In this document: one piece after another, positions 49-43,624 of the stretch
How positions within the stretch are numbered: position 1 is the stretch's first letter
How the letters are laid out: each line of letters opens with the position of its first letter
IMG/VR virus record: IMGVR_UViG_3300042908_000950
Coordinates: 1 to 57,098 of that record
Length of the DNA: 57,098 bases
Direction: 5' to 3' (one strand)
Source of the DNA: a virus
Notes under the pieces: model-generated
What the model was told of the DNA's origin: nothing
The model's input: the letters and a program-made list of their open reading frames with translations, nothing else
The model's database searches: none
Made by a program: the position numbers and the translations under genes

Positions 49-124
49 GCACCCATCGTCTAGAGGCCTAGGACATTGCCCTTTCAAGGCAGTAACACGG
101 GTTCGAATCCCGTTGGGTGTACCA
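49..124 (+). tRNA. tRNA-Glu(UUC)
   Basis: Cloverleaf with a 7-bp acceptor stem (GCACCCA with TGGGTGT), anticodon loop CTTTCAA (anticodon TTC), a T-arm containing GGTTCGAATCC, and encoded ACCA. It decodes GAA/GAG and is the first gene of the tRNA array. Confidence 0.95.
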
Positions 125-146
125 CAATTAAATTATTGGAGATGAT

Positions 147-338: not shown

Positions 339-380
339 AGGAGAGTCCATTATGGACAGCGACAAGAGTGATAATATAGA

Positions 381-456
381 GGGGCTATAGTCAAACGGTT
401 AAGACAGCGGACTTTTAATCCGTCAGGTCAGGGTTCGAATCCCTGTGGCCCCACCA
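381..456 (+). tRNA. tRNA-Lys(UUU)
   Basis: Acceptor GGGGCTA pairs with TGGCCCC, the anticodon stem GCGGA/TCCGT encloses loop CTTTTAA (anticodon TTT), the T-arm is present and CCA is encoded. Confidence 0.95.
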
Positions 457-461
457 TCTAA

Positions 462-486
462 AAGCACATTAGTGACCAGTGTGCTT
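462..486 (+). other. Inter-tRNA hairpin
   Basis: Inverted repeat AAGCACA (462-468) / TGTGCTT (480-486), 7 bp with an 11-nt loop, between tRNA-Lys and tRNA-Gln. There is no U-run, so it is more likely a processing or stability element of the polycistronic tRNA precursor than a terminator. Confidence 0.4.
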
Positions 487-499
487 ATAAATGGTTTGT

Positions 500-575
500 T
501 GGAGGTTCGCCAAGTTGGTAAGGCATCGGATTTTGATTCCGACATGCACAGGTTCGAGTCCTGTACCTCCTGCCA
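500..575 (+). tRNA. tRNA-Gln(UUG)
   Basis: Anticodon stem TCGGA/TCCGA with loop TTTTGAT gives anticodon TTG. The acceptor pairs GGAGGT with ACCTCC; the outermost pair is a T-T mismatch, a weak first pair being usual for tRNA-Gln. GCCA is encoded at the 3' end. Confidence 0.9.
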
Positions 576-582
576 AAAATAT

Positions 583-660
583 GGCATGTTAGCATAGTTG
601 GCCTAATGCGCCGCCCTGTCACGGCGGAGACCACGGGTTCGAATCCCGTACATGTCGCCA
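583..660 (+). tRNA. tRNA-Asp(GUC)
   Basis: Acceptor GGCATGT/ACATGTC, anticodon stem CCGCC/GGCGG with loop CTGTCAC (anticodon GTC), T-arm with GGGTTCGAATCCC, GCCA encoded. Confidence 0.95.
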
Positions 661-669
661 AAGAATTAT

Positions 670-744
670 TGCTCAGTAGATCAGCGGTAGATCAGCGGAC
701 TGTTAATCCGTGTGTCGTAGGTTCGATCCCTACCTGAGCAGCCA
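670..744 (+). tRNA. tRNA-Asn(GUU)
   Basis: Acceptor TGCTCAG/CTGAGCA, anticodon stem GCGGA/TCCGT with loop CTGTTAA (anticodon GTT), T-arm GTAGGTTCGATCCCTAC, discriminator G and CCA encoded. Confidence 0.95.
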
Positions 745-938
745 AATCCGGTTACTACTTTCCTGAAAGTAGCGTGTGGCGACGATAACTGTCCCGGTGG
801 CTATGGCACCGTTAGCGTTACTAGTGACTGACAACATAGCAGCGTACATTATGCGTGAAAATTTCAACATGATGTGGACAGGGTAACAACTCAGCATAGG
901 GGCTTGTCTGGTAAACAAGTAGCCTAAGCAAGAATGTA
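745..938 (+). other. Structured non-coding gap between tRNA-Asn and tRNA-Tyr
   Basis: About 190 bp with no convincing ORF. It holds three hairpins: CTACTTT/AAAGTAG at 755-772 (4-nt loop), CGGTG/CACCG near 815, and CTTGT/ACAAG at 903-919. The last has a 7-nt loop CTGGTAA that looks like an anticodon arm (GGT, Thr), but no acceptor stem or T-arm surrounds it. This may be a decayed tRNA or a processing spacer. Confidence 0.4.
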
Positions 939-1023
939 GGGTGACGAGCAGCACTGGTGACTGCACCTGACTGTAAATCAGACGCCTTCGGCATACTTGG
1001 TTCGACTCCGAGGTCACCCACCA
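939..1023 (+). tRNA. tRNA-Tyr(GUA)
   Basis: Acceptor GGGTGAC/GTCACCC, anticodon loop CTGTAAA (anticodon GTA), a long variable arm with CGCCTTCGGCA as expected for a type II tRNA, T-arm and ACCA. About 85 nt. Confidence 0.95.
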
Positions 1024-1035
1024 TATAAGTAATAA

Positions 1036-1111
1036 CGGTCTTTAGTAAAATGGATGATTACGGCGGGCTACGGACCCGCAGGTGGGAGTTCGATTCTCTC
1101 AGGACCGGCCA
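1036..1111 (+). tRNA. tRNA-Arg(ACG)
   Basis: Acceptor CGGTCTT/AGGACCG, anticodon stem GCGGG/CCCGC with loop CTACGGA (anticodon ACG, read after A-to-I editing), T-arm GGGAGTTCGATTCTCTC, GCCA encoded. Confidence 0.93.
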
Positions 1112-1127
1112 AACTAATGGAGATATT

Positions 1128-1718
1128 ATGGATGCAGATTTGATTGAACAGATAGCGTATCATGCACAAATGCTTGCGACCCTGGGCAAAAAAGCAGGCA
1201 TTCATAAAATAACAGATAAAACGAAATGGCGTGAATTAGTTATGGCTGGTAAGTTGAATCATCAAGCCTTTGAAAAAATTAGCGCAGGAAAAAAATCTGC
1301 AAAGTATGGCGCTGATGCGTTTGATTCAAATGCAAACAAAATGGCAGAATATAAATCTTCTGCTATTGAAGATAAAGATTTGAAAAATTTGCTTCAAAAA
1401 GTAAAAAGCAAAAAGACAGGCACAAGATACAATTCGCTGACAATCGGTGGTGTTTATAACGGTGCTTATAATCATGAGAGTGTTGATAGATATGCATTTC
1501 ATGATCATTATTTTGGAATATTTTATGATGAAAGATGTTTGCTAATTATAAAGCCTCATACGGAATATGTAATTAGTATTTTGCGTGATGGAGTAAATAA
1601 AATGATTGCCAAAGGAAAAGGCACAACAAATTTGAATACCGTCAAAGTAAACTTGAAAGATAGTCATTTGTATGATATAGTGTATCGTAATGACGAATGG
1701 TTTGCAGAAAATGGCTGA
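1128..1718 (+). CDS. Unknown protein translationally coupled to a DNA methyltransferase
   Basis: A 196-residue protein. An upstream in-frame ATG at 1050 lies inside tRNA-Arg, so I place the start at ATG 1128, preceded by GGAG. The N-terminal half is Lys-rich and probably helical. The C-terminal half contains a cluster of aromatic, His and Asp residues (DRYAFHDHYFGIFYDE near residues 119-134) and hydrophobic strands. I do not recognise the family. Its stop overlaps the methyltransferase start in the string ATGGCTGA, so the two are made together. A restriction enzyme, specificity factor or methyltransferase partner is possible, but that is inference from position only. Confidence 0.75.
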   Translation: MDADLIEQIAYHAQMLATLGKKAGIHKITDKTKWRELVMAGKLNHQAFEKISAGKKSAKYGADAFDSNANKMAEYKSSAIEDKDLKNLLQKVKSKKTGTRYNSLTIGGVYNGAYNHESVDRYAFHDHYFGIFYDERCLLIIKPHTEYVISILRDGVNKMIAKGKGTTNLNTVKVNLKDSHLYDIVYRNDEWFAENG

Positions 1719-2643
1719 AAGTAGATTATCAAAAGATATTACAACCGAAGAATTGATGGCGATTGATTATCGTTACAACTATTCGGCCAAAGAGTTGAAC
1801 ACTGATTGGATAAAATTGTGTGGGACTAAACAATTCAAAAAAGGGGCGCAGTTCAAACCCGGAATGAAATTGTGTCAACACTTTTGTGACAATTTTTGGA
1901 CGATTCAAAATGATAAAGGCTTATCATTTGCTGATGCATGGAAAAATCCAGAAATAATGGATAAAGTGCGTTTATGGGGCTTACAAGGTATGTCGCAATT
2001 GTGGCTATCTTGGATTCGAAGAGCAGTTTTTATGACTGCTGGTTTACCGAATTCTAGTTTCTATCGACCGCATTTTTCTAAACAGATAACAATGATGACT
2101 GGTAAGAAAAGCGGAACATTGTTTGATCCGTGTGCTGGTTGGGGTGGCAGAATGTTGGGCACAGTATCTAACAATTGGAAATATGTTAGTTGTGATCCTA
2201 ATGTTGAAACTTATAACAATCTATTGAGAATGATAGAATTTCTCAATATACAATCTGAAGTTTATTTACATAATGTTCCTGTTGAAGATTTTGATATTGA
2301 GAGTTTAGGCAAAGTTGATGTTGTGTTGACTTCACCGCCCTATTTCAATTTAGAAGTTTACACGGGTGATGAAAATCAATCGTATAATAAATTTGATACA
2401 TATGAAGTTTGGCGTGATAACTGGTTGTATCCACTTATCGACAGAAGTTTGAATGTATTGTGTGATGATGGTATCAGTGCTTGGAATGTGATGAATTTCA
2501 AAAAGTATGACTTTGTTGGTGATGTTATTCGAAAGCATGAAGAAAGAGGTTATAAATTAGTGGACACAGTTGGTTTTGATAGTCCATTAGCAAATATACG
2601 TAAATTGAAAAATAAAGATGTTACGTATATTTTCAGAAAGTAA
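1711..2643 (+). CDS. DNA methyltransferase (N4-cytosine/N6-adenine class)
   Basis: A 310-residue protein. The SAM-binding motif FDPCAGWGGRMLG lies near residues 138-150 and the catalytic motif TSPPYF near 206-211. The SPPY form is commonest in N4-cytosine enzymes but also occurs in N6-adenine enzymes, so the target base is open. The aromatic-rich region before the first motif may carry target recognition. I chose ATG 1711, which overlaps the upstream stop; an in-frame ATG at 1690 would add seven residues. Likely roles are protecting phage DNA from host restriction or epigenetic marking. The gene sits between two groups of tRNA genes, a frequent site for acquired genes. Confidence 0.85.
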   Translation: MAESRLSKDITTEELMAIDYRYNYSAKELNTDWIKLCGTKQFKKGAQFKPGMKLCQHFCDNFWTIQNDKGLSFADAWKNPEIMDKVRLWGLQGMSQLWLSWIRRAVFMTAGLPNSSFYRPHFSKQITMMTGKKSGTLFDPCAGWGGRMLGTVSNNWKYVSCDPNVETYNNLLRMIEFLNIQSEVYLHNVPVEDFDIESLGKVDVVLTSPPYFNLEVYTGDENQSYNKFDTYEVWRDNWLYPLIDRSLNVLCDDGISAWNVMNFKKYDFVGDVIRKHEERGYKLVDTVGFDSPLANIRKLKNKDVTYIFRK

Positions 2644-2644
2644 T

Positions 2645-2720
2645 GGGGGATTGGTGCTAATTGGGAACACATGTGCTTTGCAAGCATGAGTAAGCAGTTC
2701 GAATCTGCTATCCTCCACCA
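2645..2720 (+). tRNA. tRNA-Ala(UGC)
   Basis: Acceptor GGGGGAT/ATCCTCC, anticodon loop TTTGCAA (anticodon TGC) closed by TGTGC/GCATG, T-arm AGCAGTTCGAATCTGCT, ACCA encoded. It begins 1 nt after the methyltransferase stop codon. Confidence 0.93.
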
Positions 2721-2727
2721 TAGTTTT

Positions 2728-2801
2728 GCCCGTTTAGTTAAATGGTATAACAGTTGATTTGTAATCATCTATTGGCAGTTCGATTCTGTCAACGGGCACC
2801 A
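2728..2801 (+). tRNA. tRNA-Thr(UGU)
   Basis: Acceptor GCCCGTT/AACGGGC, anticodon loop TTTGTAA (anticodon TGT), T-arm GGCAGTTCGATTCTGTC, ACCA encoded. Confidence 0.93.
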
Positions 2802-2824
2802 GTTTTTTTATTTACGGGTGAAAC

Positions 2825-3292
2825 ATGAAAAAAGAAATTGACATACATGAAGTGGCTGCATTTCTTGACACATGCGGTCCCGATACGAAAGTTTACATTG
2901 GTGCTGACAGTGAACGCTTTCAAATAGATGGTGAATGGTTTGCTGATTACATTGTAGCAGTCGTGGTCCACATTGATGGTCGTCACGGCTGTAAGATATT
3001 CGGCGCTGTTCAGCGTGAACGTGATTATGAACAAAAGAAAAGTCGGCCACGTTTTCGTTTGATGAACGAAGTTTACAAAGTGGCTGATTTGTATTTGAAA
3101 TTGTATGAAGTAATTCCACATGATATACAAATTCATTTGGACATCAACCCAAGTGAAATTCATGGTAGTTCATGTGTAGTAAACGAAGCAATTGGTTATA
3201 TCAAAGGTACATGTAATGTTGTGCCGCTGGTGAAGCCAAAAGCATTTGCAGCAAGTTATGCGGCAGATCGTTTCAAAAGTTTAGTAGCGTAG
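2825..3292 (+). CDS. YkuK-like RNase H-fold protein (DUF458)
   Basis: A 155-residue protein with features of the YkuK/DUF458 RNase H-like family: an early acidic strand VYIGADSE (residues 23-30), a long central helix and a second acidic strand HLDINPSE (near 101-108). These are suitable for the metal-binding carboxylates of an RNase H fold. Biochemistry in this family is poorly known, so a nuclease role is inferred. The stop codon TAG ends at 3292, which is also the first base of the following tRNA-Gly, so coding and tRNA sequence abut with a 1-nt overlap. Confidence 0.75.
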   Translation: MKKEIDIHEVAAFLDTCGPDTKVYIGADSERFQIDGEWFADYIVAVVVHIDGRHGCKIFGAVQRERDYEQKKSRPRFRLMNEVYKVADLYLKLYEVIPHDIQIHLDINPSEIHGSSCVVNEAIGYIKGTCNVVPLVKPKAFAASYAADRFKSLVA

Positions 3293-3367
3293 CGGGTATA
3301 GTACAGTTGGTAGTACATTTGCTTGCCAAGCAAAAGGTCATCGGTTCGAGCCCGATTACCCGCTCCA
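3292..3367 (+). tRNA. tRNA-Gly(GCC)
   Basis: Acceptor GCGGGTA/TACCCGC, anticodon stem TTTGC/GCAAA with loop TTGCCAA (anticodon GCC), T-arm ATCGGTTCGAGCCCGAT, TCCA encoded. Its first base is the last base of the preceding stop codon. Confidence 0.95.
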
Positions 3368-3373
3368 ATTTAT

Positions 3374-3447
3374 CCTGATGTGGTGTAATGGCAGCACTGC
3401 GGTCTCCAAAACCGTAAGTTGCGGTTCGAGTCCGTACATCAGGGCCA
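3374..3447 (+). tRNA. tRNA-Trp(CCA)
   Basis: Acceptor CCTGATG/CATCAGG, anticodon stem GCGGT/ACCGT with loop CTCCAAA (anticodon CCA), T-arm, GCCA encoded. Confidence 0.93.
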
Positions 3448-3449
3448 AT

Positions 3450-3544
3450 GGTAGACAGCACTGGTGTGCGGCGGAGACTTATAAACTCTGGAGATCGGTC
3501 AGATGGGCTGAAACGGCTAGGTTCAAATCCTAGGTCTACTACCA
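3450..3544 (+). tRNA. Atypical type II tRNA, apparent anticodon UAU
   Basis: About 95 nt. Acceptor GGTAGAC/GTCTACT, T-arm CTAGGTTCAAATCCTAG and ACCA are all sound. The D region (GCAC TGGT GTGC) is too short for a normal D-loop. The anticodon arm is CGGAG/CTCTG closing a 9-nt loop ACTTATAAA (or a 6-bp stem with an A-A mismatch and 7-nt loop CTTATAA), whose centre is TAT. The variable region is about 27 nt, with CGGTC/GGCTG able to pair. A long variable arm normally means Leu, Ser or Tyr, yet the anticodon would read AUA (Ile). Identity is unresolved; it may be a degenerate Leu-type gene. Confidence 0.6.
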
Positions 3545-3551
3545 GAACAAT

Positions 3552-3626
3552 GGTGTCTATGGTGTAGTGGTAGCATTACTCTCTGTGAAAGAGTAGGTAC
3601 GAGGTCGGTACTCGTTAGACACCCCA
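3552..3626 (+). tRNA. tRNA-His(GUG)
   Basis: G-1 at 3552 faces discriminator C, the His identity pair. Acceptor GTGTCTA/TAGACAC, anticodon stem ACTCT/AGAGT with loop CTGTGAA (anticodon GTG), CCA encoded. Confidence 0.93.
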
Positions 3627-3635
3627 AATGATGAC

Positions 3636-3709
3636 TGCCCTGTAGTTAAATGGTATAACTGTCGATTGATAATCGACCATTACAAGTTCAATTCTTGTCG
3701 GGGCAACCA
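3636..3709 (+). tRNA. tRNA-Ile(GAU)
   Basis: Acceptor TGCCCTG/CGGGGCA, anticodon stem GTCGA/TCGAC with loop TTGATAA (anticodon GAT), T-arm ACAAGTTCAATTCTTGT, ACCA encoded. Confidence 0.93.
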
Positions 3710-3710
3710 T

Positions 3711-3785
3711 GGTAATGTAGCATAATGGTAGTGCGCCTCCTTCATACGGAGTAAAGTGTAAGTTCAACTCTTACCATTACCACCA
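3711..3785 (+). tRNA. tRNA-Met-type (CAU)
   Basis: Acceptor GGTAATG/CATTACC, anticodon loop TTCATAC (anticodon CAT), T-arm GTAAGTTCAACTCTTAC, ACCA encoded. The sequence alone does not separate elongator Met from a lysidine-modified Ile(AUA) tRNA; the weak outer anticodon-stem pair argues against an initiator. Confidence 0.88.
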
Positions 3786-3796
3786 TATAAGTAAAG

Positions 3797-3871
3797 GCAT
3801 CGTTAGTTCAGTGGTAGAATCCCTGCCTTACAAGCAGGTTGTCGGTGGTTCGAATCCATCACGATGCACCA
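3797..3871 (+). tRNA. tRNA-Val(UAC)
   Basis: Acceptor GCATCGT/ACGATGC, anticodon stem CCTGC/GCAGG with loop CTTACAA (anticodon TAC), T-arm GGTGGTTCGAATCCATC, ACCA encoded. Confidence 0.95.
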
Positions 3872-3877
3872 GAATTT

Positions 3878-4030
3878 ATGTTAGAAATATTTTTTACAAT
3901 CATATTTTATTGGATATCTTTAGCGATATCTGTTACAATTCTGATGTGGTCTGGTCTAAAACTAGCCATGTTGTGTGAGTTCGTGGTAAGGTGGCTGAGT
4001 GGTCCAAAGCAGCAGTCTGCAAAACTGTAA
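3878..4030 (+). CDS. Possible small membrane peptide overlapping tRNA-Cys
   Basis: ATG 3878 opens a 50-codon frame whose first 30 residues are strongly hydrophobic, enough for one membrane span. There is no clear ribosome site, and the 3' third runs into tRNA-Cys (3985-4062). The hydrophobic run is the only support; it may be a chance frame. Confidence 0.25.
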   Translation: MLEIFFTIIFYWISLAISVTILMWSGLKLAMLCEFVVRWLSGPKQQSAKL

Positions 4031-4062
4031 AACCGTCGGTTCAAATCCGACCCTTACCTCCA
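3985..4062 (+). tRNA. tRNA-Cys(GCA)
   Basis: Acceptor GGTAAGG/CCTTACC, anticodon stem GCAGT/ACTGT with loop CTGCAAA (anticodon GCA), T-arm GTCGGTTCAAATCCGAC, TCCA encoded. Confidence 0.93.
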
Positions 4063-4067
4063 GTTAT

Positions 4068-4155
4068 GGAAGCGTGGCCGAGTGGTTGAAGGCACTGGTC
4101 TTGAAAACCAGCAACGGGAAACTGTTCGTGAGTTCGAATCTCACCGCTTCCGCCA
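4068..4155 (+). tRNA. tRNA-Ser(UGA)
   Basis: Type II tRNA: acceptor GGAAGCG/CGCTTCC, D-arm GGCCGAGTGGTTGAAGGC, anticodon stem CTGGT/ACCAG with loop CTTGAAA (anticodon TGA), long variable arm, GCCA encoded. Confidence 0.95.
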
Positions 4156-4159
4156 GTTT

Positions 4160-4251
4160 GGAGTGTTGGCCGAGTTGGTCGAAGGCACTTTCCTGCTAAG
4201 AAAGCATACCTCAAAAGGGTATCATTGGTTCGAATCCAATACACTCCGCCA
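4160..4251 (+). tRNA. tRNA-Ser(GCU)
   Basis: Type II tRNA: acceptor GGAGTGT/ACACTCC, anticodon stem CTTTC/GAAAG with loop CTGCTAA (anticodon GCT), variable arm TACCTCAAAAGGGTA, GCCA encoded. Last gene of the main array; a promoter starts 2 nt later. Confidence 0.95.
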
Positions 4252-4252
4252 C

Positions 4253-4281
4253 TTGACAATGTTTTTTTCATGCTATATACT
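4253..4281 (+). promoter_or_regulatory. Sigma70-type promoter directly after the tRNA array
   Basis: TTGACA at 4253-4258, a 17-bp spacer, TATACT at 4276-4281. The predicted transcription start (about 4288) coincides with ATG 4289, so the first gene would be read from a leaderless or nearly leaderless message. Confidence 0.8.
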
Positions 4282-4288
4282 GTCTATC

Positions 4289-4462
4289 ATGTCTAAGAAA
4301 TTGAAAAATCAGTCGCAAAAAGTCTCTAAGCCACGAAACTATGTGGCAAAAGACTTGTTCACACCCAAATACAGCATGAAAGTTGAACATTCTATCGTCA
4401 ATTTTTACAGTCGTGCTGCCGAAAAACAAAACTTCCGAAAAAATTATGTCACTTTTCTCTAA
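4289..4462 (+). CDS. Small basic protein behind an early promoter
   Basis: A 57-residue Lys/Arg/Asn-rich protein starting at ATG 4289, 8 nt after the -10 element. No upstream ribosome site fits, in line with a leaderless start. No domain recognised. Its last codons overlap the next frame at 4446. High net positive charge fits a nucleic-acid or RNA-polymerase-binding early protein, but that is only inference. Confidence 0.6.
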   Translation: MSKKLKNQSQKVSKPRNYVAKDLFTPKYSMKVEHSIVNFYSRAAEKQNFRKNYVTFL

Positions 4463-4895
4463 AAAAGCACCGAAAGTAGAAGTTGATGATGATCATGAGA
4501 TAGTTCCTCGTGATGAAATGAGTGAGTTTGATGGTTTTTACTTTGTTCCTGATGAAAATGACTATGAGGAAAATTGTAAGATTGCATTTTTCAAGATAAA
4601 AGATGAAGAAGCAAATTCGGAACCCGTTGAAAGTTCACACATGGGTCTAAAATATCATCTTTGCCTCTTCACACATGATGAAAATAGTCTTCCAGTGTTT
4701 GATGATGCGTTTGAGGCGATACTTGTTGATCCACTTGTGTATGTAAAAGGTCTTGTCGGCACTGGAATTTCAGGCTGTATTGTCAAAAAGTCAGGAAAAT
4801 CAGAAAAATGGTGGATTGAGTATCTTGATTATATTATGAACGGTGAATTTAAGCGAAAAGCAAAGGAAGCACTTGAATCTGTAGCACAAAACTGA
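4446..4895 (+). CDS. Acidic hypothetical protein
   Basis: A 149-residue protein. An in-frame ATG at 4383 exists, but ATG 4446, overlapping the end of the preceding gene, gives the natural start MSLFSKKAPK. It has an acidic N-terminal linker (VDDDHEIVPRDE), then a mixed alpha/beta region with strands such as KYHLCLFTH and a Lys-rich end. No transmembrane segment. I do not recognise the family. It is the second gene of the short unit started by the promoter at 4253. Confidence 0.7.
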   Translation: MSLFSKKAPKVEVDDDHEIVPRDEMSEFDGFYFVPDENDYEENCKIAFFKIKDEEANSEPVESSHMGLKYHLCLFTHDENSLPVFDDAFEAILVDPLVYVKGLVGTGISGCIVKKSGKSEKWWIEYLDYIMNGEFKRKAKEALESVAQN

Positions 4896-4911
4896 TAACA
4901 TGGAGATCAAA

Positions 4912-5196
4912 ATGGTGAATGTTTTTACTGGTGATACTAAAGATGCAAAAAAAGGTCGTAAGTGGCTCAAAAATGTACTTGAAACTGATGTTGTCGAAGT
5001 CACTTTTACGAAAAAAGACGGTTCTGAACGAATTATGAAGTGTACATTGAAAGAAGATGTACTTCCTGAAGTTCAAAACAAAGAAACGAAACAAAAATCT
5101 CAAGAAGCAATTGCTGTTTGGGATGTAGAGTCTGAAGGTTGGCGCTCATTTCGTTGGGATTCAATCAAATCTGTGAAATTTACAATTGAGAGGTAA
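4912..5196 (+). CDS. SH3-like barrel protein (DUF2693-type)
   Basis: A 94-residue protein. Start ATG 4912 is chosen because GGAG at 4902-4905 is correctly spaced; ATG 4900 would lie upstream of that site. The pattern VTFTKKDGSERIMKCTL followed by VWDVESEGWRSFRWDSIKS matches a widespread phage family predicted to form an SH3-like beta-barrel (DUF2693). Function in the family is not established. It sits among small genes behind the promoter at 4253. Confidence 0.7.
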   Translation: MVNVFTGDTKDAKKGRKWLKNVLETDVVEVTFTKKDGSERIMKCTLKEDVLPEVQNKETKQKSQEAIAVWDVESEGWRSFRWDSIKSVKFTIER

Positions 5197-5198
5197 TC

Positions 5199-5489
5199 AT
5201 GCCTAAGTACATTGTTGAACAAATCTCGGCTTTTCGAAATGTTCATGTAGTTGAAGCGGAAAATGAAGATGAGGCACTTGCGATTGCCGATCAAGCCGAT
5301 GATAATTGGCAAGAATGGCTAGGTTCTCTCAAAATTGATGTAACTAACTATACTGATGAGAGAATTTCGTTCTTCAAAGATAAAGATTACTTTTGGGGCG
5401 GTGTATCATACAAAGATGCTGATGGTTTTATCGGATATATCCATCCTAACGGTGAAAGAGTTGAGCGGAAAGAAGTCAAAGTTAAATAG
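5199..5489 (+). CDS. Hypothetical protein
   Basis: A 96-residue acidic protein with GAGAGG upstream of ATG 5199, two bases after the preceding stop. The N-terminus (YIVEQISAFRNVHVVEAENEDEALAIAD) has the strand-helix pattern common in small phage proteins of unknown role, and the C-terminus is Trp/Tyr/Gly-rich. Followed immediately by tRNA-Gly(UCC). No function can be given. Confidence 0.65.
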   Translation: MPKYIVEQISAFRNVHVVEAENEDEALAIADQADDNWQEWLGSLKIDVTNYTDERISFFKDKDYFWGGVSYKDADGFIGYIHPNGERVERKEVKVK

Positions 5490-5490
5490 T

Positions 5491-5565
5491 GCGGGTGTAA
5501 CTCAGTGGTAGAGTGTCAGCCTTCCAAGCTGTTCGTCGCAGGTTCGATCCCTGTCACCCGCTCCA
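5491..5565 (+). tRNA. tRNA-Gly(UCC)
   Basis: Acceptor GCGGGTG/CACCCGC, anticodon loop CTTCCAA (anticodon TCC), T-arm GCAGGTTCGATCCCTGT, TCCA encoded. It stands alone, 1.2 kb past the main array and within an operon of protein genes. Confidence 0.95.
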
Positions 5566-22422: not shown

Positions 22423-23184
22423 ATGGCAAGGAGAGCAGCACTAAAGCAAGTTTATAGCAGTGAAGAAGTAACTGATTATCCAAAACCAACCAATAGATTA
22501 AGACTAAGGTTGGATGATATGAAAACGTTTCAACCACTAACTGAAAATCAAAAAACATTTTTTGATGCATATAAGAGGCAAGATTATTTTATAGCGTTAC
22601 ATGGTGTTGCTGGAACAGGTAAAACGTTTTCAGCATTATATAAAGCAATTGAAGAAGTATTAGATAAAAGTAATCCTTTTGAAAAAATTGTTGTTGTTCG
22701 TTCCGCAGTACAATCTAGAGAAATCGGACATCTGCCTGGAAGTGTAGATGAGAAGATGGAAATCTATCAGCAACCATATCGTCAAATATGCGAAACACTT
22801 TTTGGTCGCAAAGATGCATGGGATAGACTAGAAGAACAAGGTCACATTGAATTTATTTCAACATCGTTTATTCGTGGTATGTCATTTGATGATGCAATTA
22901 TCATCGTTGATGAAATGCAGAATATGACTTTTGAAGAAATAGATACGGTGATGACACGTGTAGGCCATCGATCAAAGATCATTTGGTGTGGTGACTACAG
23001 ACAAACCGACTTAAACAAAAAGAAAAACGATGTATCTGGCTTGTTGAAGTTTTTTGATATTGCATACCATATGGATGCTTTTACAAGAATAGAATTTACG
23101 CCAGATGATATTGTTCGTTCAAGCCTGGTCAAAGATTACATTTTGGCTAAATTGAAGTTTGAGGATATCTCAGAGAAAACATAA
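22423..23184 (+). CDS. phoH: PhoH-like ATPase
   Basis: A 253-residue P-loop protein. Walker A GVAGTGKT at about residues 60-67, VVRSAVQSREIGHLPG at about 90-105, Walker B AIIIVDEMQNMT at about 157-168, and WCGDYRQTD near 189-197, the standard PhoH order. PhoH is common in marine phages; a role in RNA or nucleotide metabolism under phosphate stress is proposed but unproven. AAGGAAC precedes ATG 22423. First gene of a group with a RecB-like nuclease. Confidence 0.92.
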   Translation: MARRAALKQVYSSEEVTDYPKPTNRLRLRLDDMKTFQPLTENQKTFFDAYKRQDYFIALHGVAGTGKTFSALYKAIEEVLDKSNPFEKIVVVRSAVQSREIGHLPGSVDEKMEIYQQPYRQICETLFGRKDAWDRLEEQGHIEFISTSFIRGMSFDDAIIIVDEMQNMTFEEIDTVMTRVGHRSKIIWCGDYRQTDLNKKKNDVSGLLKFFDIAYHMDAFTRIEFTPDDIVRSSLVKDYILAKLKFEDISEKT

Positions 23185-23186
23185 TA

Positions 23187-23852
23187 ATGCGAATATTTGA
23201 ACATGTAAATTTGCCGCAACTCCAATTCGATCTAAACGCCGAAACTACCGATAGTGGTAGACTCTATACTACACCAGAAGGCAATAAGTATAAGTCTATC
23301 ACTACGGTACTTTCAAATTATAATAAGAAAGCCATCTATGAATGGCGCCAGGCTGTTGGTGAAGAACAGGCCAACAAAGTGTCACGTAAGGCAGCAAGTC
23401 GTGGTACGAAAGTGCATAAGATTTGTGAAGATTACATCAACAATGAGATATCCGAAATGAAGATGCAAATGTTGATGCCTGATATGAAGGAACTATTCTT
23501 CAAAATCAAGCCAGATATTGATGAATGCGTTGGCAAAGTCTATGCACAAGAGCAAGCCCTATATTCTGACAAATACAGAATCGCTGGTCGAGTTGACTTG
23601 ATTGCTGAATGGGATGGTAAGTTATCAGTCATTGATTTCAAAACATCGACCAAACAAAAAGATGAAGAAGATATTCAGAACTACTTTATGCAGTGTACAG
23701 CATATGCTTTGATGTTTGCTGAACGAACTGGCATTTGGATTGATGATATTGTGGTGGTGATTGCTACTGAAGAAGGTCCAGCACAAATTTTTGAAAAACA
23801 GATACATGATTATCGGCAACCATTATTAGTTTATGTTGATAAATATGCTTGA
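23187..23852 (+). CDS. PD-(D/E)XK exonuclease (RecB/Cas4-like)
   Basis: A 221-residue nuclease. Motifs in order are H77 in SRGTKVHKI, E122 in YAQEQALYS, D137 in AGRVDLIAE, D150-x-K152 in VIDFKTSTK and Q169 in YFMQCTAYA. This is the active-site layout of RecB-family nucleases. It lacks the four-cysteine Fe-S cluster of Cas4. Likely processes DNA ends in recombination or replication, or degrades host DNA. It starts 2 bp after phoH. Confidence 0.88.
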   Translation: MRIFEHVNLPQLQFDLNAETTDSGRLYTTPEGNKYKSITTVLSNYNKKAIYEWRQAVGEEQANKVSRKAASRGTKVHKICEDYINNEISEMKMQMLMPDMKELFFKIKPDIDECVGKVYAQEQALYSDKYRIAGRVDLIAEWDGKLSVIDFKTSTKQKDEEDIQNYFMQCTAYALMFAERTGIWIDDIVVVIATEEGPAQIFEKQIHDYRQPLLVYVDKYA

Positions 23853-23867
23853 CAATTTGGAGGCGTC

Positions 23868-24398
23868 ATGCTATCATTCAAACAACACAAACAATTAGAT
23901 GAGGGTAATCCTCTTGCCAGACTGCAAAAACATGCCGAAGAAGGTAGACATTATGCAGTTCTTTCCTCACAACGACCACATAGTGAGGTGTCTCCAGAAG
24001 AAAATAAAAAGCATCACGAAGAGTTGAAAAAGAAACTAACGGCGCAGGGTTATGCCCATAAAGAAGTAGAAGGTCATTGGGAAGGTGGCAAAGAAAAGTC
24101 TATATTGGTACATGCTAAAGGAAAAGGAGATGAACACGGCAAACAACTCCTCCATGATATTAAAAAACATGGAGAACATTATAACCAAGACTCAATCTTA
24201 CATCATGATGGAAAAACAGCAACCTTACATGGAACAAACAAAACAGGTTTTCCAGGACACGGCAAGACAGAGAACGTAGGTAAAATGGCTTTCAATAAAG
24301 CACATGCACCATTTCAAACAGAAATGAAACCGAAGTCAGACAAGCCGTTGAAACCCGGAAGAACAACTAAGAGTTCATCTAGATTTACGACGGAGTGA
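23868..24398 (+). CDS. DUF3293-like conserved phage protein
   Basis: A 176-residue His/Lys-rich protein. The pattern YAVLSSQRPHSEVSPEENKKHHEELKKKL followed by EGHWEGGKEKSILVHAKG matches the DUF3293 type. The later NQDSILHHDGKTATLHGTNKTGFPGHGK block is, as I recall, conserved in marine phage homologues. Function unknown. GGAGG lies 5 nt before ATG 23868. A promoter-like TTGACA/TATCAT pair overlaps the start but is not counted as a promoter. Confidence 0.7.
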   Translation: MLSFKQHKQLDEGNPLARLQKHAEEGRHYAVLSSQRPHSEVSPEENKKHHEELKKKLTAQGYAHKEVEGHWEGGKEKSILVHAKGKGDEHGKQLLHDIKKHGEHYNQDSILHHDGKTATLHGTNKTGFPGHGKTENVGKMAFNKAHAPFQTEMKPKSDKPLKPGRTTKSSSRFTTE

Positions 24399-24400
24399 TA

Positions 24401-24571
24401 ATGGAAATAAGTGAAAAAGAATATTACAAAAGACTCGATAATTATTTGAGAGAATGTGGTCCGAATCCAGGCACTACATTTTTTGGTTCATGGGGCTGGT
24501 ATGCCCACAAAAGAAATGAGTTCAATGCAATAATGAAAGAGGAAGGAATTGTTGTAATCCCTTCAAAGTGA
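24401..24571 (+). CDS. Small protein overlapping the tmRNA acceptor piece
   Basis: A 56-residue frame from ATG 24401, 2 bp after the preceding stop with GGAG upstream. Aromatic-rich (FFGSWGWYAHKRNEFN). Its last codons coincide with the probable 5' part of the tmRNA acceptor piece (pairing segment from 24559), so either the gene and RNA share sequence or the RNA piece begins slightly later. Function unknown. Confidence 0.55.
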   Translation: MEISEKEYYKRLDNYLRECGPNPGTTFFGSWGWYAHKRNEFNAIMKEEGIVVIPSK

Positions 24572-24918
24572 AGGCATTCTGGACGTGGGTTCGACTCCCA
24601 CCTGGTCCACCAGAAGTGTTGTTTAGGGTGATATGTAAGAGTTTAACAAGACTCTGAGGATTGGAATTCCCGACCTGTGAACAGCAGGACACTTCTGATG
24701 GGCCAGACATGGTTTCGACAGGATGAGATAGTGGAGAAGGCAACACGAAAGGCGACGGACGTAATCCGAGCAAAAATAGTAACTGCAAACGATGAAAGTT
24801 ACGCTCTAGCAGCCTAAATTGCTAGATGAGGTTTCGCCGACTGTCCTTATTATCCAATCAGTCGGCACCAATTGTGGGTTTGGTGGCATCACCCGGACTA
24901 GTGCCAAAAAACCACCAC
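24559..24918 (+). ncRNA. ssrA: tmRNA, circularly permuted (two-piece)
   Basis: Acceptor piece first: GGACGTGGGTTCGACTCCCA T-arm and CTGGTCCACCA ending at 24612. A spacer (24613-24699) follows. The coding piece starts at 24700 with GGGCCAG, which pairs over 7 bp with CTGGTCC (24602-24608); the tRNA-like segment GGTTTCGACAGG matches the standard tmRNA 5' end. AGGATG (24720-24725) pairs with CATTCT (24575-24580), and GAAGG (24736-24740) with CCTTC (24560-24564), giving helix P2 between the pieces. The tag begins at resume codon GCA 24785 and reads ANDESYALAA with stop TAA at 24815-24817, in a hairpin TCTAGCA/TGCTAGA. Downstream are GCCGACTG/CAGTCGGC (24836-24866) and a possible H-type pseudoknot (GGCAC/GTGCC with TGGTGG/CCACCA). 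It rescues stalled ribosomes and tags the broken protein. The exact outer ends are estimates. Confidence 0.93.
24613..24699 (+). other. tmRNA internal spacer hairpin
   Basis: CAGAAGTGT (24611-24619) pairs with ACACTTCTG (24689-24697), extending the acceptor stem without interruption. Inner stems AGAGT/ACTCT and CCTG/CAGG fold the rest. This is the linker expected to be excised from a permuted tmRNA precursor, leaving the CCA end and the 5' end of the coding piece. Confidence 0.8.
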
Positions 24919-26825: not shown

Positions 26826-27221
26826 ATGGATTTTGATAACGACACTCATAACTTTACAATTCGATTCGATTCAAATGATGGCAATAGAAGTCTTGAAATG
26901 AACTTTAATGAATTATTTCTTGATGACATTCTCAATCAAATGAGAGACTTTCTAAGAGGTTGTGGTTACGAAATCGATGGACAGATTCAAGTTGTGCCTT
27001 CTGAACACGAAGATGTATATGTGGGAACAGATGACTATTTGGTATTAGATGATGCACCAGATTTTAGTTTCGAAAATATTCCAAACAACAACTGGCCATT
27101 CAGTGCAACAGTGAATGATACAATTCCACCGCAAGCAAAAGAACCTGTGACATTTGCAATGCCAGGCACAGTCGGCGGTGCTACTTATGACTTGCGCTTT
27201 GGTAGCCCAAATGGTGCGTAA
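26826..27221 (+). CDS. Acidic hypothetical protein
   Basis: A 131-residue acidic protein. N-terminal beta/alpha part (FTIRFDSNDGNRSLEMNFNELFLDDILNQMRDFLRGCGYEI, positions 10-50) and a Pro/Asn-rich C-terminus. GGGAG lies before ATG 26826; the stop overlaps the gp33-like start (TAATG). No family recognised. Confidence 0.65.
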   Translation: MDFDNDTHNFTIRFDSNDGNRSLEMNFNELFLDDILNQMRDFLRGCGYEIDGQIQVVPSEHEDVYVGTDDYLVLDDAPDFSFENIPNNNWPFSATVNDTIPPQAKEPVTFAMPGTVGGATYDLRFGSPNGA

Positions 27222-27445
27222 TGCCGACTAAAGAGGAAATGCTAAAGTTTTCTTTGGGCATTGAACAACTGGTAGCCAATACAGATTACACATATCTTGA
27301 GGCTATTGGTGAACACTGCAAAGAAACTGGTTTGGAGGTTGAAGTTGCTGCTACTTTGATTACGCCAAATCTCAAAGCAAAAATTCAAGAACAAGCAGAA
27401 AGTTTGAACATGCTAAAAGGAAAAGGTAATCGTTTACCCATATGA
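27221..27445 (+). CDS. 33: gp33-like late transcription co-activator
   Basis: A 74-residue helical protein, MPTKEEMLKFSLGIEQLVANTDYTYLEAIGEHCKETGLEVEVAATLI ending NLKAKIQEQAESLNMLK (positions 1-66). It resembles the small T4-type late co-activator gp33, which links RNA polymerase to the sliding clamp at late promoters. The position immediately before gp59 and close to gp32 matches the T4 33-59-32 order. Presence of NATAAATA promoters agrees. The gp55 sigma is not in this window. Overlaps gp59 by 4 bp (ATGA). Confidence 0.65.
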   Translation: MPTKEEMLKFSLGIEQLVANTDYTYLEAIGEHCKETGLEVEVAATLITPNLKAKIQEQAESLNMLKGKGNRLPI

Positions 27446-28053
27446 CTGGATATGAAGCATTCTGTTTATTTCATTCTCTCAAACTTCACTTCAATTCCGA
27501 TTCTTACGATTACTTTCGATATAATGGTAAGACTAGTACGAGCATAGATGCCTTTGAGAATCGAAAAGACAAATATCATTTTTACAAATTGAGTCGGCGA
27601 TTCTCAAATGCTGAACAAGGTCGTGATTTTATCGTTGCTAATCTTGTGCATGATTCTAATGTTTGGATTGGACATCTATTGACAGAAGAATCAGACATTC
27701 AGTATCGGAAAAGACAAAAAATAATCCAAGCACTGACATATCATTTTACTAATGAAGTCAAAGATTTTTTATTTGATGGTAATCCAAATGATAATCTGAC
27801 AGTGGTAGATACTCAGTATCCTAAGTTACTACACAATATGTTGCATGGTGATGTATCAATTGAAACGATTTGTGTATTGAATAGCATACTGAACTTTTTG
27901 CCCAAATGGGATGTGAAGATTGAAGATACGATTCATTTTCCAAAGATCAGCCGAACAATAAAGAAGTACACTCCGTTCATAAATTTCGAACCAACGAAAT
28001 ATAAACTTATACTGAAAAAGGAATATGATGCGAATACAGAAAATTTATCTTGA
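27442..28053 (+). CDS. 59: gp59-like helicase loader
   Basis: A 203-residue protein. The N-terminus MTGYEAFCLFHSLKLHF followed by DSYDYFRYNGKTSTS and ENRKDKYHFYKLSR is the hallmark of T4 gp59, which loads the gp41 helicase on gp32-coated forks. The two-domain helical layout and length (T4: about 217) agree. It sits between gp33-like and a HAD gene, then gp32. Overlaps the HAD gene by 29 bp. Confidence 0.9.
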   Translation: MTGYEAFCLFHSLKLHFNSDSYDYFRYNGKTSTSIDAFENRKDKYHFYKLSRRFSNAEQGRDFIVANLVHDSNVWIGHLLTEESDIQYRKRQKIIQALTYHFTNEVKDFLFDGNPNDNLTVVDTQYPKLLHNMLHGDVSIETICVLNSILNFLPKWDVKIEDTIHFPKISRTIKKYTPFINFEPTKYKLILKKEYDANTENLS

Positions 28054-28593: not shown

Positions 28594-29457
28594 ATGGACT
28601 TTTCTAAACTACGCAATAACCGCAACTCATTCGAGAAACTCACCAAAGCGGTTGAATCAATCAATACAAACACAGAATCTGGTTCAAGAGGCGATGATCG
28701 TTTCTGGACACCAGAGGTTGACAAAGCAGGTAACGGCATGGCTGTTGTTCGTTTCCTTCCTGCTCCAGCAGTAGATGGTGATGATGGACTTCCTTGGGTA
28801 CGTATCTTTGATCATGGCTTTCAAGGTCCCGGTGGTTGGTACATTGAAAACTCTTTGACAACACTCAATCAAAAAGATCCAGTTTCGGAGCATAACTCTG
28901 TTTTGTGGAACTCAGGCATTGAAGCAAACAAAGAGATTGCACGTAAACAAAAACGCCGTTTACATTATGTGACTAATGTTTACATTGTTTCTGATCCAAA
29001 GAATCCAGATAATGAAGGACAGATTCGTCTTTACAAGTTTGGCAAGAAAATCTTTGATAAGATTACAGAAGCAATGAATCCAGAATTCGAAGATGAAAAG
29101 GCAATCAATCCTTTTGATTTCTGGGAAGGTGCTAACTTCAAAATCAAGATTCGTCAAGTTGAAGGTTATCGCAACTATGACAAGTCTGAGTTTGATTCTC
29201 CTTCAGCATTGCTTGATGGTGATGATGCAAAACTTGAAGCACTGTGGAAAAAGCAACACTCACTCAAAGAGTTTCTTGATCCAAAGAACTTCAAATCTTA
29301 TGATGTGTTGAAAGCAAAACTTGATAAAGTCTTAGGTCTTGATGGTGCAGCACCAGTATCAAAGACTAAGGCTATTGATGAGAACTTTGTTCCTAAACCA
29401 TCAGCAGATATTGATGATGAAGAACTTGATTACTTCAAGTCTCTAGCAGAAGATTGA
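28594..29457 (+). CDS. 32: gp32-like single-stranded DNA-binding protein
   Basis: A 287-residue protein with T4 gp32 layout. N-terminal basic cooperativity segment FSKLRNNRNSFEKL, OB-fold core beginning DDRFWTPEVDKAGNGMAVVRFLPAP, GGWYIENSLTTLNQKDPVSEHN, KQKRRLHYVTNVYIVSDP, and acidic tail DIDDEELDYFKSLAED for protein contacts. The cysteines that bind zinc in T4 gp32 are absent. It coats ssDNA in replication, recombination and repair. Last gene before a strong terminator. Confidence 0.93.
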   Translation: MDFSKLRNNRNSFEKLTKAVESINTNTESGSRGDDRFWTPEVDKAGNGMAVVRFLPAPAVDGDDGLPWVRIFDHGFQGPGGWYIENSLTTLNQKDPVSEHNSVLWNSGIEANKEIARKQKRRLHYVTNVYIVSDPKNPDNEGQIRLYKFGKKIFDKITEAMNPEFEDEKAINPFDFWEGANFKIKIRQVEGYRNYDKSEFDSPSALLDGDDAKLEALWKKQHSLKEFLDPKNFKSYDVLKAKLDKVLGLDGAAPVSKTKAIDENFVPKPSADIDDEELDYFKSLAED

Positions 29458-41129: not shown

Positions 41130-43624
41130 TGACTACTGATCTGAGAACATCCATACTTGTCAATCGTCAAGTTCCTGAGTTTGTTCGGGACGAATATCCT
41201 CTTTTCGTCACTTTTCTTGAGGCGTACTATGAGTTCCTTGAGCAAAAACAAGGAACAAAAATCAATGATCTGATTACGCAAGCTAAAAATCTGCGTCACG
41301 TTTCAGATGTCGATGATTCAATAGAGCAATTTGAGAAAAACTTTATCAATAACTATGCACCATTATTTCCATTAGATACTGCTGCTGATAAAGCACTTCT
41401 CATCAAAAAAGCATTACCTTTATACCTAACAAAAGGTAGTGTAAAGTCATTTGAATTATTGTTCAGACTTCTTTATGGTCAAGAAGTTACGATTACATAT
41501 CCTAAAGATAATATTCTTCGTGCATCGGACGGCAAGTGGACAGTAGAAAATGTCGTTCGTATTGACAATGATGTTTACTCTTATTATGAAGGTGATGGCA
41601 CAACAAAAATCTTTATTCTTCCACAAGAAGTTGCCGATTCAGACGTTACAGTTTATGTAAACAATGTTGTAATTACGAGCGGCTTTTATATTCTCAAAGA
41701 AGCAAAGAAGATAGTATTCAATTCTGCGCCAGCCAGCAATGCTAAAATAAGAGTTGTATATGACAATTTTGATGAAACATTATTTGCAAACAGAAAAATC
41801 ACAGGTCTGACTTCTGGTGCTACTGCAATTGTTGAACGTGCAGCGCCAAGATTGATCACTCAACAAACTTCAATTGAGTTATATGTTGATGAATCTACTT
41901 TGTTAGGTTCATTTCTCAACGCCGAAACAATCACATCAGATGTTTTTGCCGATGATGGTGTAACTCTTATTACAATACGGTCAGATACCGTCGCTACACT
42001 CAGTTCAATTACAATAATAAATGCTGGTACTAGTTATAATGTTGGTGATCCAGTAACAATTATTGGTGGCGCTCCACAAATTCCTGCCGAAGCGATTGTT
42101 GATGAAGTGTCTGTTGGTTTTGCCGATGCTGCAACTGTTGGTTATGGTGGTGCAGGTTTTGCACTTGGTGGCATCATAACAGCATTCAACGATGATGGTA
42201 CGATTACATTAGCGTCACAGGCAATCGATACATCGGGCGCAAATTCTGCTAACTCATATACAATTTTTACTGATACGATCAACACATATGCAAATATAGT
42301 ATTATCAAATACAAATTATGGCTTTCCATCAAGTGTGATTCCTACAGGCGAAAATATAGCAACTCGTCTTGTTGATGCTTTTTCAAAAGCAACGATTACT
42401 GATATTGGTCCAATGACTAATGTTATAATTCTTTATTCGGGAACAGACACTTCGAATCTTACAATCGATGCAGATGGCGCCAAGTATGCAAATACTTTTG
42501 ATATAAAATCTTTCGGCTCTATTGGTAGAATTGATATTATATCTGGTGGCACTGGTTATAGAATAGGTGATGAGATTGTAATAGGTGCAAATCCTTCTGG
42601 AACTTATGGAAGAGGATTTGCAGCAGCAGTTACAAATACCAATGCATCTGGTGCAATTACTAGAATAGAAATTCAACCAACAAGAATTACTGGTAACGCT
42701 AATACGACAGCGGGTAATGTTGTTGTTGTCGGAACAGGAACAGATTTTGTCAATGAGTTGGCAGTTGGTGACCGCATCATGATCAACTCCGAAGCTAGAT
42801 ATGTCAACTCAATTCTTTCATCAACATCACTAAATGTGAATGTTGCATTTACAAGAACAACTACAGAAAGAAGAATTGGAGCTTTTGATCGTTACTTGAT
42901 CGGTGGTCAAGGCTACGAACAAAATAACTTTCCAACAGTTTCAGTTTCTTCTGCTACAGGTTCGGCAGCGAATTTACGAATCACATCTCTGATGGGTGAT
43001 GGTGAAAGACTTGGAATTACAGGTTCTGGAGTTTCTGGACAAATCACACGAATCAAAATAACAAATCCTGGTGCTGGTTATCAGTTCATTCCTACAATTG
43101 ATTTAGGAAACTTTGGAGATGGAACTGCAACAGCCAATGCACAGATTGAAAGATCGTATATTTCTTTCCCAGGAAAATGGGTAGGTTCTGATGGTATTCT
43201 ATCTTCTTTAGATAGAAAGATTGAGGGCTTAGATTACTATATTGACTTCACTTATGTGACTTCAGTTGCCACCGAATTCTCAAAGTATGCAGCTATTTTG
43301 AAGAATCTGCTTCATCCTGCTGGTTTCAGAAACTTTGCTGAATATCCAATATCACGTTCTATAGATTCAGAAGCTACGGTTGATTCATCGGTTTCAGAAA
43401 CGATTTCTGGTTTAGTGTCCACAACAAATGGCTCTATTATTGTGACTGGTACTAATACCAAATTCAATATAGCAAATACTTTAGGCATCATTTCGATTGG
43501 CACACAAATCGCTATAAATAATCAGATTCGAACAATCAATGCAATTGTCAGCAACACATCATTGACAGTTTCAAGTGCATTTACAAGCAATGCCTCTGCA
43601 CAGACATTGATAATTATTACCTAA
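41129..43624 (+). CDS. 7: gp7-like baseplate wedge protein
   Basis: An 831-residue protein. The N-terminal segment (VPEFVRDEYPLFVTFLEAYYEFLEQ ... LTKGSVKSFELLFRLLYGQEVTITYPKDNILRASDGKW, within positions 15-148) marks the large wedge protein that follows gp6 in marine T4-like phages and is usually called gp7-like. The middle and C-terminus are beta-rich with GYG/GTGY repeats (ISGGTGYRIGDEIVI; ITNPGAGYQFIPTIDLG). Assignment to gp7 rests on gene order more than on direct similarity to T4 gp7. Starts at the gp6 stop (TAATG). Confidence 0.75.
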   Translation: MTTDLRTSILVNRQVPEFVRDEYPLFVTFLEAYYEFLEQKQGTKINDLITQAKNLRHVSDVDDSIEQFEKNFINNYAPLFPLDTAADKALLIKKALPLYLTKGSVKSFELLFRLLYGQEVTITYPKDNILRASDGKWTVENVVRIDNDVYSYYEGDGTTKIFILPQEVADSDVTVYVNNVVITSGFYILKEAKKIVFNSAPASNAKIRVVYDNFDETLFANRKITGLTSGATAIVERAAPRLITQQTSIELYVDESTLLGSFLNAETITSDVFADDGVTLITIRSDTVATLSSITIINAGTSYNVGDPVTIIGGAPQIPAEAIVDEVSVGFADAATVGYGGAGFALGGIITAFNDDGTITLASQAIDTSGANSANSYTIFTDTINTYANIVLSNTNYGFPSSVIPTGENIATRLVDAFSKATITDIGPMTNVIILYSGTDTSNLTIDADGAKYANTFDIKSFGSIGRIDIISGGTGYRIGDEIVIGANPSGTYGRGFAAAVTNTNASGAITRIEIQPTRITGNANTTAGNVVVVGTGTDFVNELAVGDRIMINSEARYVNSILSSTSLNVNVAFTRTTTERRIGAFDRYLIGGQGYEQNNFPTVSVSSATGSAANLRITSLMGDGERLGITGSGVSGQITRIKITNPGAGYQFIPTIDLGNFGDGTATANAQIERSYISFPGKWVGSDGILSSLDRKIEGLDYYIDFTYVTSVATEFSKYAAILKNLLHPAGFRNFAEYPISRSIDSEATVDSSVSETISGLVSTTNGSIIVTGTNTKFNIANTLGIISIGTQIAINNQIRTINAIVSNTSLTVSSAFTSNASAQTLIIIT

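Follow-up and report, generated by a model that had tools for sequence, protein, structure and literature searches.

A linear IMG/VR fragment of 57,098 bases (hereafter the window, by which we mean the whole stretch of DNA analyzed) carries at 24548 to about 24870 of its plus strand what sequence analysis confirms as an intact tmRNA gene, circularly permuted and of the betaproteobacterial type. We consider it very probable that this is a complete, working phage-borne ssrA, long established at a fixed locus, that rescues ribosomes during lytic infection. The window tmRNA belongs to a known kind, and its added interest lies in a phage-only tag class carried by some of its relatives and in a spacer that is both conserved and exchanged.

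An Rfam search of the window matched the gene, well above chance, to the beta_tmRNA model RF01850 (152.4 bits, E = 6.3e-47, against a gathering threshold of 84) and to tmRNA_permuted, RF04321 (150.9 bits, E = 5.5e-30), a model of 2025 into which the permuted models for alpha, beta and cyano tmRNAs were merged (PMC11915505). RF01850 was the top-scoring model of the tmRNA/tRNA clan at the locus in a search that drops lower-scoring overlapping clan matches, and ARAGORN called a tmRNA* at 24520-24908 with the tag ANDESYALAA. A preliminary description of this DNA had placed a T-arm/CCA half 5' of the 5' half; Rfam, ARAGORN and the covariation described below agree with that gene order, and the gene passes the search with permuted-tmRNA models that the same description had suggested. 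As to its claim of a two-piece tmRNA, the permuted gene stands (Rfam, ARAGORN), and the two-piece form is presumed from the permutation.

The CCA-bearing 3' tRNA-like half and the 5' half pair as a 7-bp acceptor stem, located where the preliminary description had put it and including the wobble G24702·U24606. The T-loop, D-loop and P2 of the tRNA-like domain are present, with the alanine-identity wobble G3·U70, and a tag frame lies downstream, as had been proposed, with a resume codon at its start, a stop codon at its end and an LAA-type degron terminus (Table 1). P2 pairs at 24575-24580/24720-24725 as described earlier, and is extended to 7 bp by G24581-C24719. The second proposed P2 pairing (P2b) forms 5 bp here but is paired in only 60% of 95 homologues. 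The earlier start at 24559 needs correction: the P2c segment had been missed, and the acceptor piece therefore begins about 10 nt upstream. The coding piece has an uncertain 3' end, since ARAGORN extends it to 24908 whereas its final conserved element, a hairpin with arms at 24836-24843/24859-24866, ends at 24866.

Table 1. Features of the tmRNA locus and its neighborhood (window coordinates).
Feature	Position	Strand	Basis or remark
PhoH-like protein	22423..23184	+	PF02562; synteny; conserved upstream neighbor
PDDEXK exonuclease	23187..23852	+	PF12705, phrog_298; synteny; conserved upstream neighbor
Candidate sigma-70-like extended -10 promoter, TTGACA-17-TATCAT, 11/12	23849..23877	+	consensus match only
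S-adenosylmethionine lyase family protein (anti-restriction-type enzyme)	23868..24398	+	PF23780, 47.8 bits, cut-off 28
Small ORF, 56 aa, MEISEKEY...IVVIPSK	24401..24571	+	present in several relatives, same end point
Acceptor (3' tRNA-like) piece	24548..24612	+	Rfam RF01850 and RF04321 alignments, ARAGORN, covariation
P2c 5' strand; P2b; P2a	24550-24554; 24560-24564; 24575-24581		acceptor piece
T-stem	24585-24589/24597-24601		acceptor piece
Acceptor 3' strand; discriminator; encoded CCA	24602-24608; A24609; 24610-24612		
Intervening spacer, 87 nt	24613..24699	+	between CCA and coding piece
Coding piece (5' tRNA-like and mRNA-like)	24700..24870, 3' end approximate	+	Rfam, ARAGORN, covariation, 3' hairpin
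Acceptor 5' strand; D-loop TGGTTTCGAC	24700-24706; 24710-24719		coding piece
P2a'; P2b'; P2c'	24719-24725; 24736-24740; 24741-24745		coding piece
PK1 pseudoknot	24745..24768	+	P3 24745-24747/24760-24762; P4 24756-24759/24765-24768; compensatory changes among homologues
Tag reading frame ANDESYALAA*, resume codon GCA	24785..24817	+	ARAGORN; synonymous-biased variation in homologues
P5-like hairpin CTAGCA/TGCTAG with last tag codons and stop codon	24806..24825	+	sequence, fold
3' hairpin GCCGACTG/CAGTCGGC, loop with CCTTAT	24836..24866	+	conserved among homologues
Downstream gene, 222 aa	24936..25604	+	phrog_11543; ATG at 24936 (not TTG at 24819)
Late-transcription coactivator gp33, T4-type	27221-27445	+	PF16805; also 3' of Melnitz tmRNA
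Helicase loader gp59	27442-28053	+	PF08993; also 3' of Melnitz tmRNA
gp32 ssDNA-binding protein	28594..29457	+	phrog_224; basis of phage backbone tree

Covariation between the halves was evaluated in 95 permuted phage tmRNAs, all distinct, drawn from loci in IMG/VR and INPHARED, the two halves being aligned by sequence only, the pairs counted being those of the window structure, and shuffles serving as the control. The acceptor stem was 93.6% paired, compared with a shuffled mean of 75%, and its three variable pairs had changed on both sides in 39, 45 and 25 sequences. Higher pairing than in shuffles was likewise seen for the T-stem (98.7% versus 78%), P2a (98.5% versus 83%), P2c (99.1% versus 88%) and PK1 (P3, 86% versus 78%; P4, 67% versus 54%); both-side changes were observed in PK1, and conservation among homologues does not extend to the fourth P4 pair. 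The third acceptor pair was G-U in 90 of the 95; a G-U at this position (G3·U70) is the alanine identity element. A stem of at least 6 pairs was found at the 3' hairpin in 60 of 96 homologues, with 22 different 5' arms, compared with 8.7% of shuffles. In these alignments, then, covariation between halves that are encoded apart is seen for the acceptor stem, T-stem, P2 and PK1.

Two tag classes occur at the one locus among relatives of the window. The ALAA class includes ANDESYALAA, ANDERYALAA, ANDELYALAA and others, and the second consists of 13-residue tags of the form ANDxxYGE[D/E]RLAA (for example, ANDAFYGEDRLAA), which are carried by L123, L130, L134 and L157, among others, and alternate with ALAA tags in close phages. 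The degenerate ANDxxYGE[D/E]RLAA pattern gave no match in 84,980 species genomes of bacteria and archaea and 56 matches in viral contigs, nearly all of them within ARAGORN tmRNA* genes, while the control pattern ANDESYALAA detected 22 bacterial loci in the same genome set, mostly Alcaligenaceae permuted tmRNAs. Rhizobial tags ending in RLAA are already known, so what is new is the complete tag rather than its ending, and as far as the literature could be searched this class appears to be undescribed. A tag class that is present in 56 viral contigs and absent from the scanned prokaryote species genomes makes the purpose of phage tags directly testable. In L012, L035 and L049 ARAGORN reported an unusually long tag, ANVSTFKFWQSPVS[VI]AANDEAFALAA; either the tag is extended at its N terminus or the resume codon is misplaced.

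Single-base codon differences among tags were mainly synonymous, both in the ALAA class (1735 synonymous versus 223 non-synonymous) and in the RLAA class (1170 versus 180), where 23% synonymous would be expected; these counts are pairwise, hence not independent, and are descriptive, two mis-framed tags having been excluded. The bias shows that the peptide is selected in both classes. Both classes retain LAA, which in E. coli is the determinant for ClpX, and phages with the RLAA-class tag must rely on host proteases. By parsimony the tag class changed at least 11 times on the gp32 tree and at least 14 times on the exonuclease tree, with 7 and 8 changes, respectively, forced by starred branches; the number of switches is approximate because recombination can blur both trees. 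The mode of tag evolution also bears on whether the RNA might instead act on host trans-translation as a decoy or inhibitor, by titrating SmpB or the ribosome. Mycobacteriophage DS6A has a tmRNA that consists only of the tRNA-like part, for which such a role has been proposed, and a similar RNA inhibits tmRNA (PMC4131195, PMC11915505), but a decoy would need neither the intact tag frame and PK1 found here, together with the stop hairpin, nor a tag that evolves mainly by synonymous change, and we regard this explanation as improbable.

The preliminary assignment to a T4-like phage is upheld by the T4-type proteins of the window, which include gp32, gp33, gp59 and baseplate proteins. The gp6-like baseplate wedge has its best cultured match (42% identity) in Methylophilales phage Melnitz, the nearest cultured relative, and the contig represents part of the genome of a T4-like, Melnitz-like phage of freshwater bacteria. 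The gene order PhoH - PDDEXK nuclease - tmRNA - gp33 - gp59 - gp32 is common to the window and Melnitz, Pelagibacter phage Mosig has the order PDDEXK nuclease - tmRNA - gp33 - gp59, and dozens of IMG/VR relatives have the same neighborhood. Different tmRNA lineages thus occupy one constant locus, being alpha-type in Melnitz and Mosig and beta-type in the window and its relatives; this difference at one constant locus appears to be new. Phages of Nitrincola, Limnohabitans, Sinorhizobium and Agrobacterium that have the downstream gene showed no tmRNA in the stretches examined.

The synteny argues against two other origins. ssrA is a common attachment site (PMC11915505), so that the locus might be an ssrA fragment marking the integration of a temperate phage; however, the gene is complete rather than a 3' fragment, it lies inside the T4-like replication and late-gene region at the same position in related phages, and no integrase was found among the scanned window proteins. 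We rejected this reading on the basis of synteny and the tmRNA tree, and give it virtually no credence. The other origin is a recently captured host ssrA, a passenger acquired via transduction or imprecise recombination and devoid of phage function, and one could envisage it because Alcaligenaceae permuted tmRNAs also use ANDESYALAA. Yet one locus is occupied across a large phage group as well as in Melnitz and Mosig, and covariation and tag selection are observed within phages. Moreover, on the tmRNA tree (141 columns, poorly resolved) the phage sequences are diverse, the window tmRNA has phage sequences as its nearest relatives, and the sampled bacterial ones stand apart in a few clusters. 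Synteny and tree led us to reject recent capture as highly improbable, and we favor a gene that phages have long carried at this fixed locus.

Several observations concern the genes around the tmRNA. The candidate promoter sits 5' of the part of the operon that includes the tmRNA. The S-adenosylmethionine lyase family gene, which PHROGs names as an SAM-dependent methyltransferase, is kept next to the tmRNA in close relatives and is an anti-restriction candidate. The last codons and the stop codon of the 56-aa ORF lie inside the acceptor piece, so that tmRNA maturation would remove the stop and turn the ORF transcript into a non-stop mRNA. The start of the tmRNA is likewise overrun by upstream ORFs, of a different kind, in other relatives. 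Elsewhere in the window, nineteen tRNA genes at 49-5565 form a large but incomplete set, and a tRNA-Ala(ggc) called by ARAGORN at 42515-42605, inside a long ORF and without Rfam support, is probably false.

The spacer between the two halves has a closing helix, GAAGTGT/ACACTTC, that prolongs the acceptor stem in the precursor (predicted fold with flanks, -41 kcal/mol). A scan of viral contigs with the window spacer pattern matched 26 others, including L102, L081, L078 and L322-L335, and found the spacer only inside tmRNA genes: an ARAGORN tmRNA* surrounds it in 25 of the 26, and in L324 the gene is incomplete but its acceptor half is visible. The spacer had no Rfam match of its own up to E = 10, a match to sR1 (E = 6.8) being dismissed as chance, and was not found in INPHARED phages (best E = 3). 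The tmRNAs that share it differ in acceptor stem, T-arm and tag, comprising 19 distinct mature tmRNAs with 6 acceptor stems and 13 tags, and gp32 identity to the window is as low as 54% among the contigs involved. Mean identity within the 19 was nonetheless 97.5% for the spacer versus 83.5% for the mature halves, with the spacer more conserved in 170 of 171 pairs, and the few spacer changes include compensatory ones in helices, from A-U to G-C and from A-U via G-U to G-C. In a second family, with a spacer of 84 nt, the corresponding values were 95.3% and 82.8% (35 of 36 pairs), while in other families the effect was weak or absent (15 of 45 pairs for a 28-nt family). At least five further families have only their ends, CCACCA-RAAG and CTTYTGAT-GGG, in common with the window spacer. 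The spacers of L154, L194, L030, L012, L043, L089 and L095 contain small ORFs (22-61 codons) whose starts are plausible, several of them hydrophobic and membrane-like.

Near-invariance of the spacer may reflect the recent spread of a cassette by recombination at its short constant ends, strong selection on the spacer RNA, or both. A conserved, exchanged spacer appears to be undescribed as far as the literature could be searched, and the higher conservation of the spacer relative to the mature RNA challenges the view of the intervening sequence of permuted tmRNAs as waste. It could be argued that the spacer is itself the selected product, an 87-nt regulatory or counter-defense RNA or a mobile cassette for which the tmRNA halves provide a processing scaffold. 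The excess conservation, the compensatory changes and the confinement of the spacer to tmRNA genes in the scan are consistent with this proposal, which is partly compatible with ribosome rescue by the mature RNA. On the other hand, near-identity is explicable by recent recombination alone, and the spacers of other phages are unrelated although their ends are alike, some being very short (28-30 nt) and others ORF-bearing. Because the mature tmRNA is itself selected and unrelated spacers occur elsewhere, the spacer is not the sole function, and we view the proposal as rather unlikely, though to be taken seriously.

Exchange at the locus is evident when close phages are compared. The window, L127 and L123 have gp32 proteins about 99% identical, yet they possess three tags (ANDESYALAA, ANDERYALAA and ANDAFYGEERLAA, respectively) and three mutually unrelated spacers of 87, 30 and 56 nt. 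Between L127 and the window the acceptor half is shared at 100% and the coding-side tRNA-like part at 98%; the corresponding values for L127 and L123 are 97% and 98%. The window spacer is 100% identical to those of L102, L124, L216, L232 and L153, and the window 3' hairpin region is closest to those of L133 and L142. Sequence comparison thus establishes module exchange at the tmRNA locus; the tRNA-like halves are retained while spacer, tag and 3' hairpin are swapped as modules via recombination between phages. Such an exchange suggests that the tag, and perhaps the spacer, is tuned to the host or to rivals. We tentatively raise the possibility, which we hold to be somewhat less than even, that in freshwater T4-like phages the tmRNA locus works as a cassette system, in which a near-invariant structured spacer moves independently of the tmRNA, the tag is swapped between the host-type ALAA and the phage-only YGE[D/E]RLAA, and both are selected for something beyond ribosome rescue, for example against host defense or rival phages. 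Phages about 99% identical in gp32 that differ in tag and spacer are natural experiments in which the selected part is separable from the unselected.

The most likely role of the RNA is to supplement host trans-translation during lytic infection. A single transcript would fold such that the CCA half pairs with the acceptor-5' half, and host tRNA-processing enzymes would excise the spacer, leaving two RNAs joined by the acceptor stem and P2. The mature RNA, having the G3·U70 wobble, would be charged with alanine and would partner host SmpB. Neither the 57-kb linear window nor any of 8 relatives, up to 170 kb in length, yielded SmpB, nor was SspB found in those 8 relatives, and host factors are therefore presumably used. 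The tmRNA would then rescue ribosomes stalled on mRNAs broken during infection and add ANDESYALAA, for which we infer recognition of the terminal LAA by ClpXP and compatibility with the host, so that ribosomes and tagged peptides would be recycled. The functions proposed in the preliminary description, ribosome recycling and redirected tagging, are plausible; ribosome maintenance or degradation of host proteins was suggested earlier for the two-piece ssrA of Melnitz (PMC9004378).

A permuted tmRNA in a T4-like phage had been thought unusual in the preliminary description, but this view is out of date, as two-piece tmRNAs in T4-like phages have already been published: the Melnitz paper describes one, and 53 two-piece forms (50 from marine or aquatic samples) were counted among 133 unique phage tmRNAs in 18,146 genomes surveyed (PMC9004378). 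Permuted tmRNAs are present in Melnitz, Mosig, Menderavirus and many IMG/VR loci; some contigs among the tmRNA-scan matches listed resemble proviruses with an ordinary host one-piece tmRNA. Like the window, Melnitz (MZ577097) and Mosig (MT647606) are T4-like (Kyanoviridae) and have their permuted tmRNA after the PDDEXK nuclease and before gp33 and gp59. Unlike that of the window, their tmRNAs are of the alphaproteobacterial type (RF01849, 106.7 and 67.6 bits) and encode the tags ANDNYVPVDYALAA (Melnitz) and GEDNFALAA (Mosig). The Melnitz tmRNA has a glutamine riboswitch in its 3' part, whereas no Rfam riboswitch reached the gathering threshold in the window.

Two-piece betaproteobacterial tmRNA was reportedly described by Sharkady and Williams in 2004, as cited in PMC9004378. 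The window tmRNA resembles betaproteobacterial permuted tmRNAs (RF01850) in gene order, tRNA-like domain, P2, tag frame and short 3' hairpins, and shares the ANDESYALAA tag with those of Alcaligenaceae. It differs from bacterial members of RF01850 in being phage-encoded and in lying among phage sequences on the tmRNA tree, and its 87-nt spacer compares with 29-65 nt in sampled bacterial sequences. Our Burkholderiales survey with RF04321 (at least 22 of 399, from the best 5 candidates per genome) is not a frequency, and its loci served as references only.

Beta-type permuted tmRNAs also occur in cultured phages at other loci. The Menderavirus phages of Stenotrophomonas (Marzo, Moby, Bhz51) are T4-like, and their permuted tmRNA passes both RF01850 and RF04321; unlike that of the window, it lies in a tRNA cluster adjoining nrdA, encodes the tag VAANDDSYTVRIAA and is found with a gammaproteobacterial host. 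The Samunavirus phages of P. aeruginosa (SM1, PA_L9, PaMx31) have a beta-type permuted tmRNA (RF01850, 111 and 101 bits; L121 1481-1901, L122 1475-1895) 3' of PhoH, but these are 93-kb phages in which PhoH was the sole T4-type neighbor detected near the tmRNA, and the tag is ANDTSFDVRLAA. Further cultured phages with permuted tmRNA, in addition to Menderavirus and Samunavirus, are DLP_6, XacN1, X1, Rb1 and Acinetobacter phage BUCT628. A tmRNA is annotated in the Marzo and Bhz51 records examined, and no tmRNA feature was present in the examined records of Moby, BUCT628, DLP_6, XacN1, X1, Rb1 and two Samunavirus phages. The unannotated genes (L121, L122, L280, L281, L282, L283, L286) belong to phages of Pseudomonas, Acinetobacter, Stenotrophomonas and Xanthomonas, and several encode tags unlike host tags (ANDTSFDVRLAA, ANDNVFGAKTLAA, ANDDSFAPMAIAA, ANDDNFRPALRLAA). 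In Xanthomonas phage XacN1 (L282 822-980, 3345-3758), a GOLLD RNA (RF02032, 227 bits) and two tRNAs with CTA anticodons were observed near the permuted tmRNA. The hosts of Menderavirus, DLP_6, XacN1, X1, Rb1, BUCT628 and Samunavirus are, we take it, gammaproteobacteria with a one-piece tmRNA, and the permuted tmRNAs of phages of Pseudomonas, Stenotrophomonas, Xanthomonas and Acinetobacter would show that a two-piece tmRNA is workable in hosts that do not produce one.
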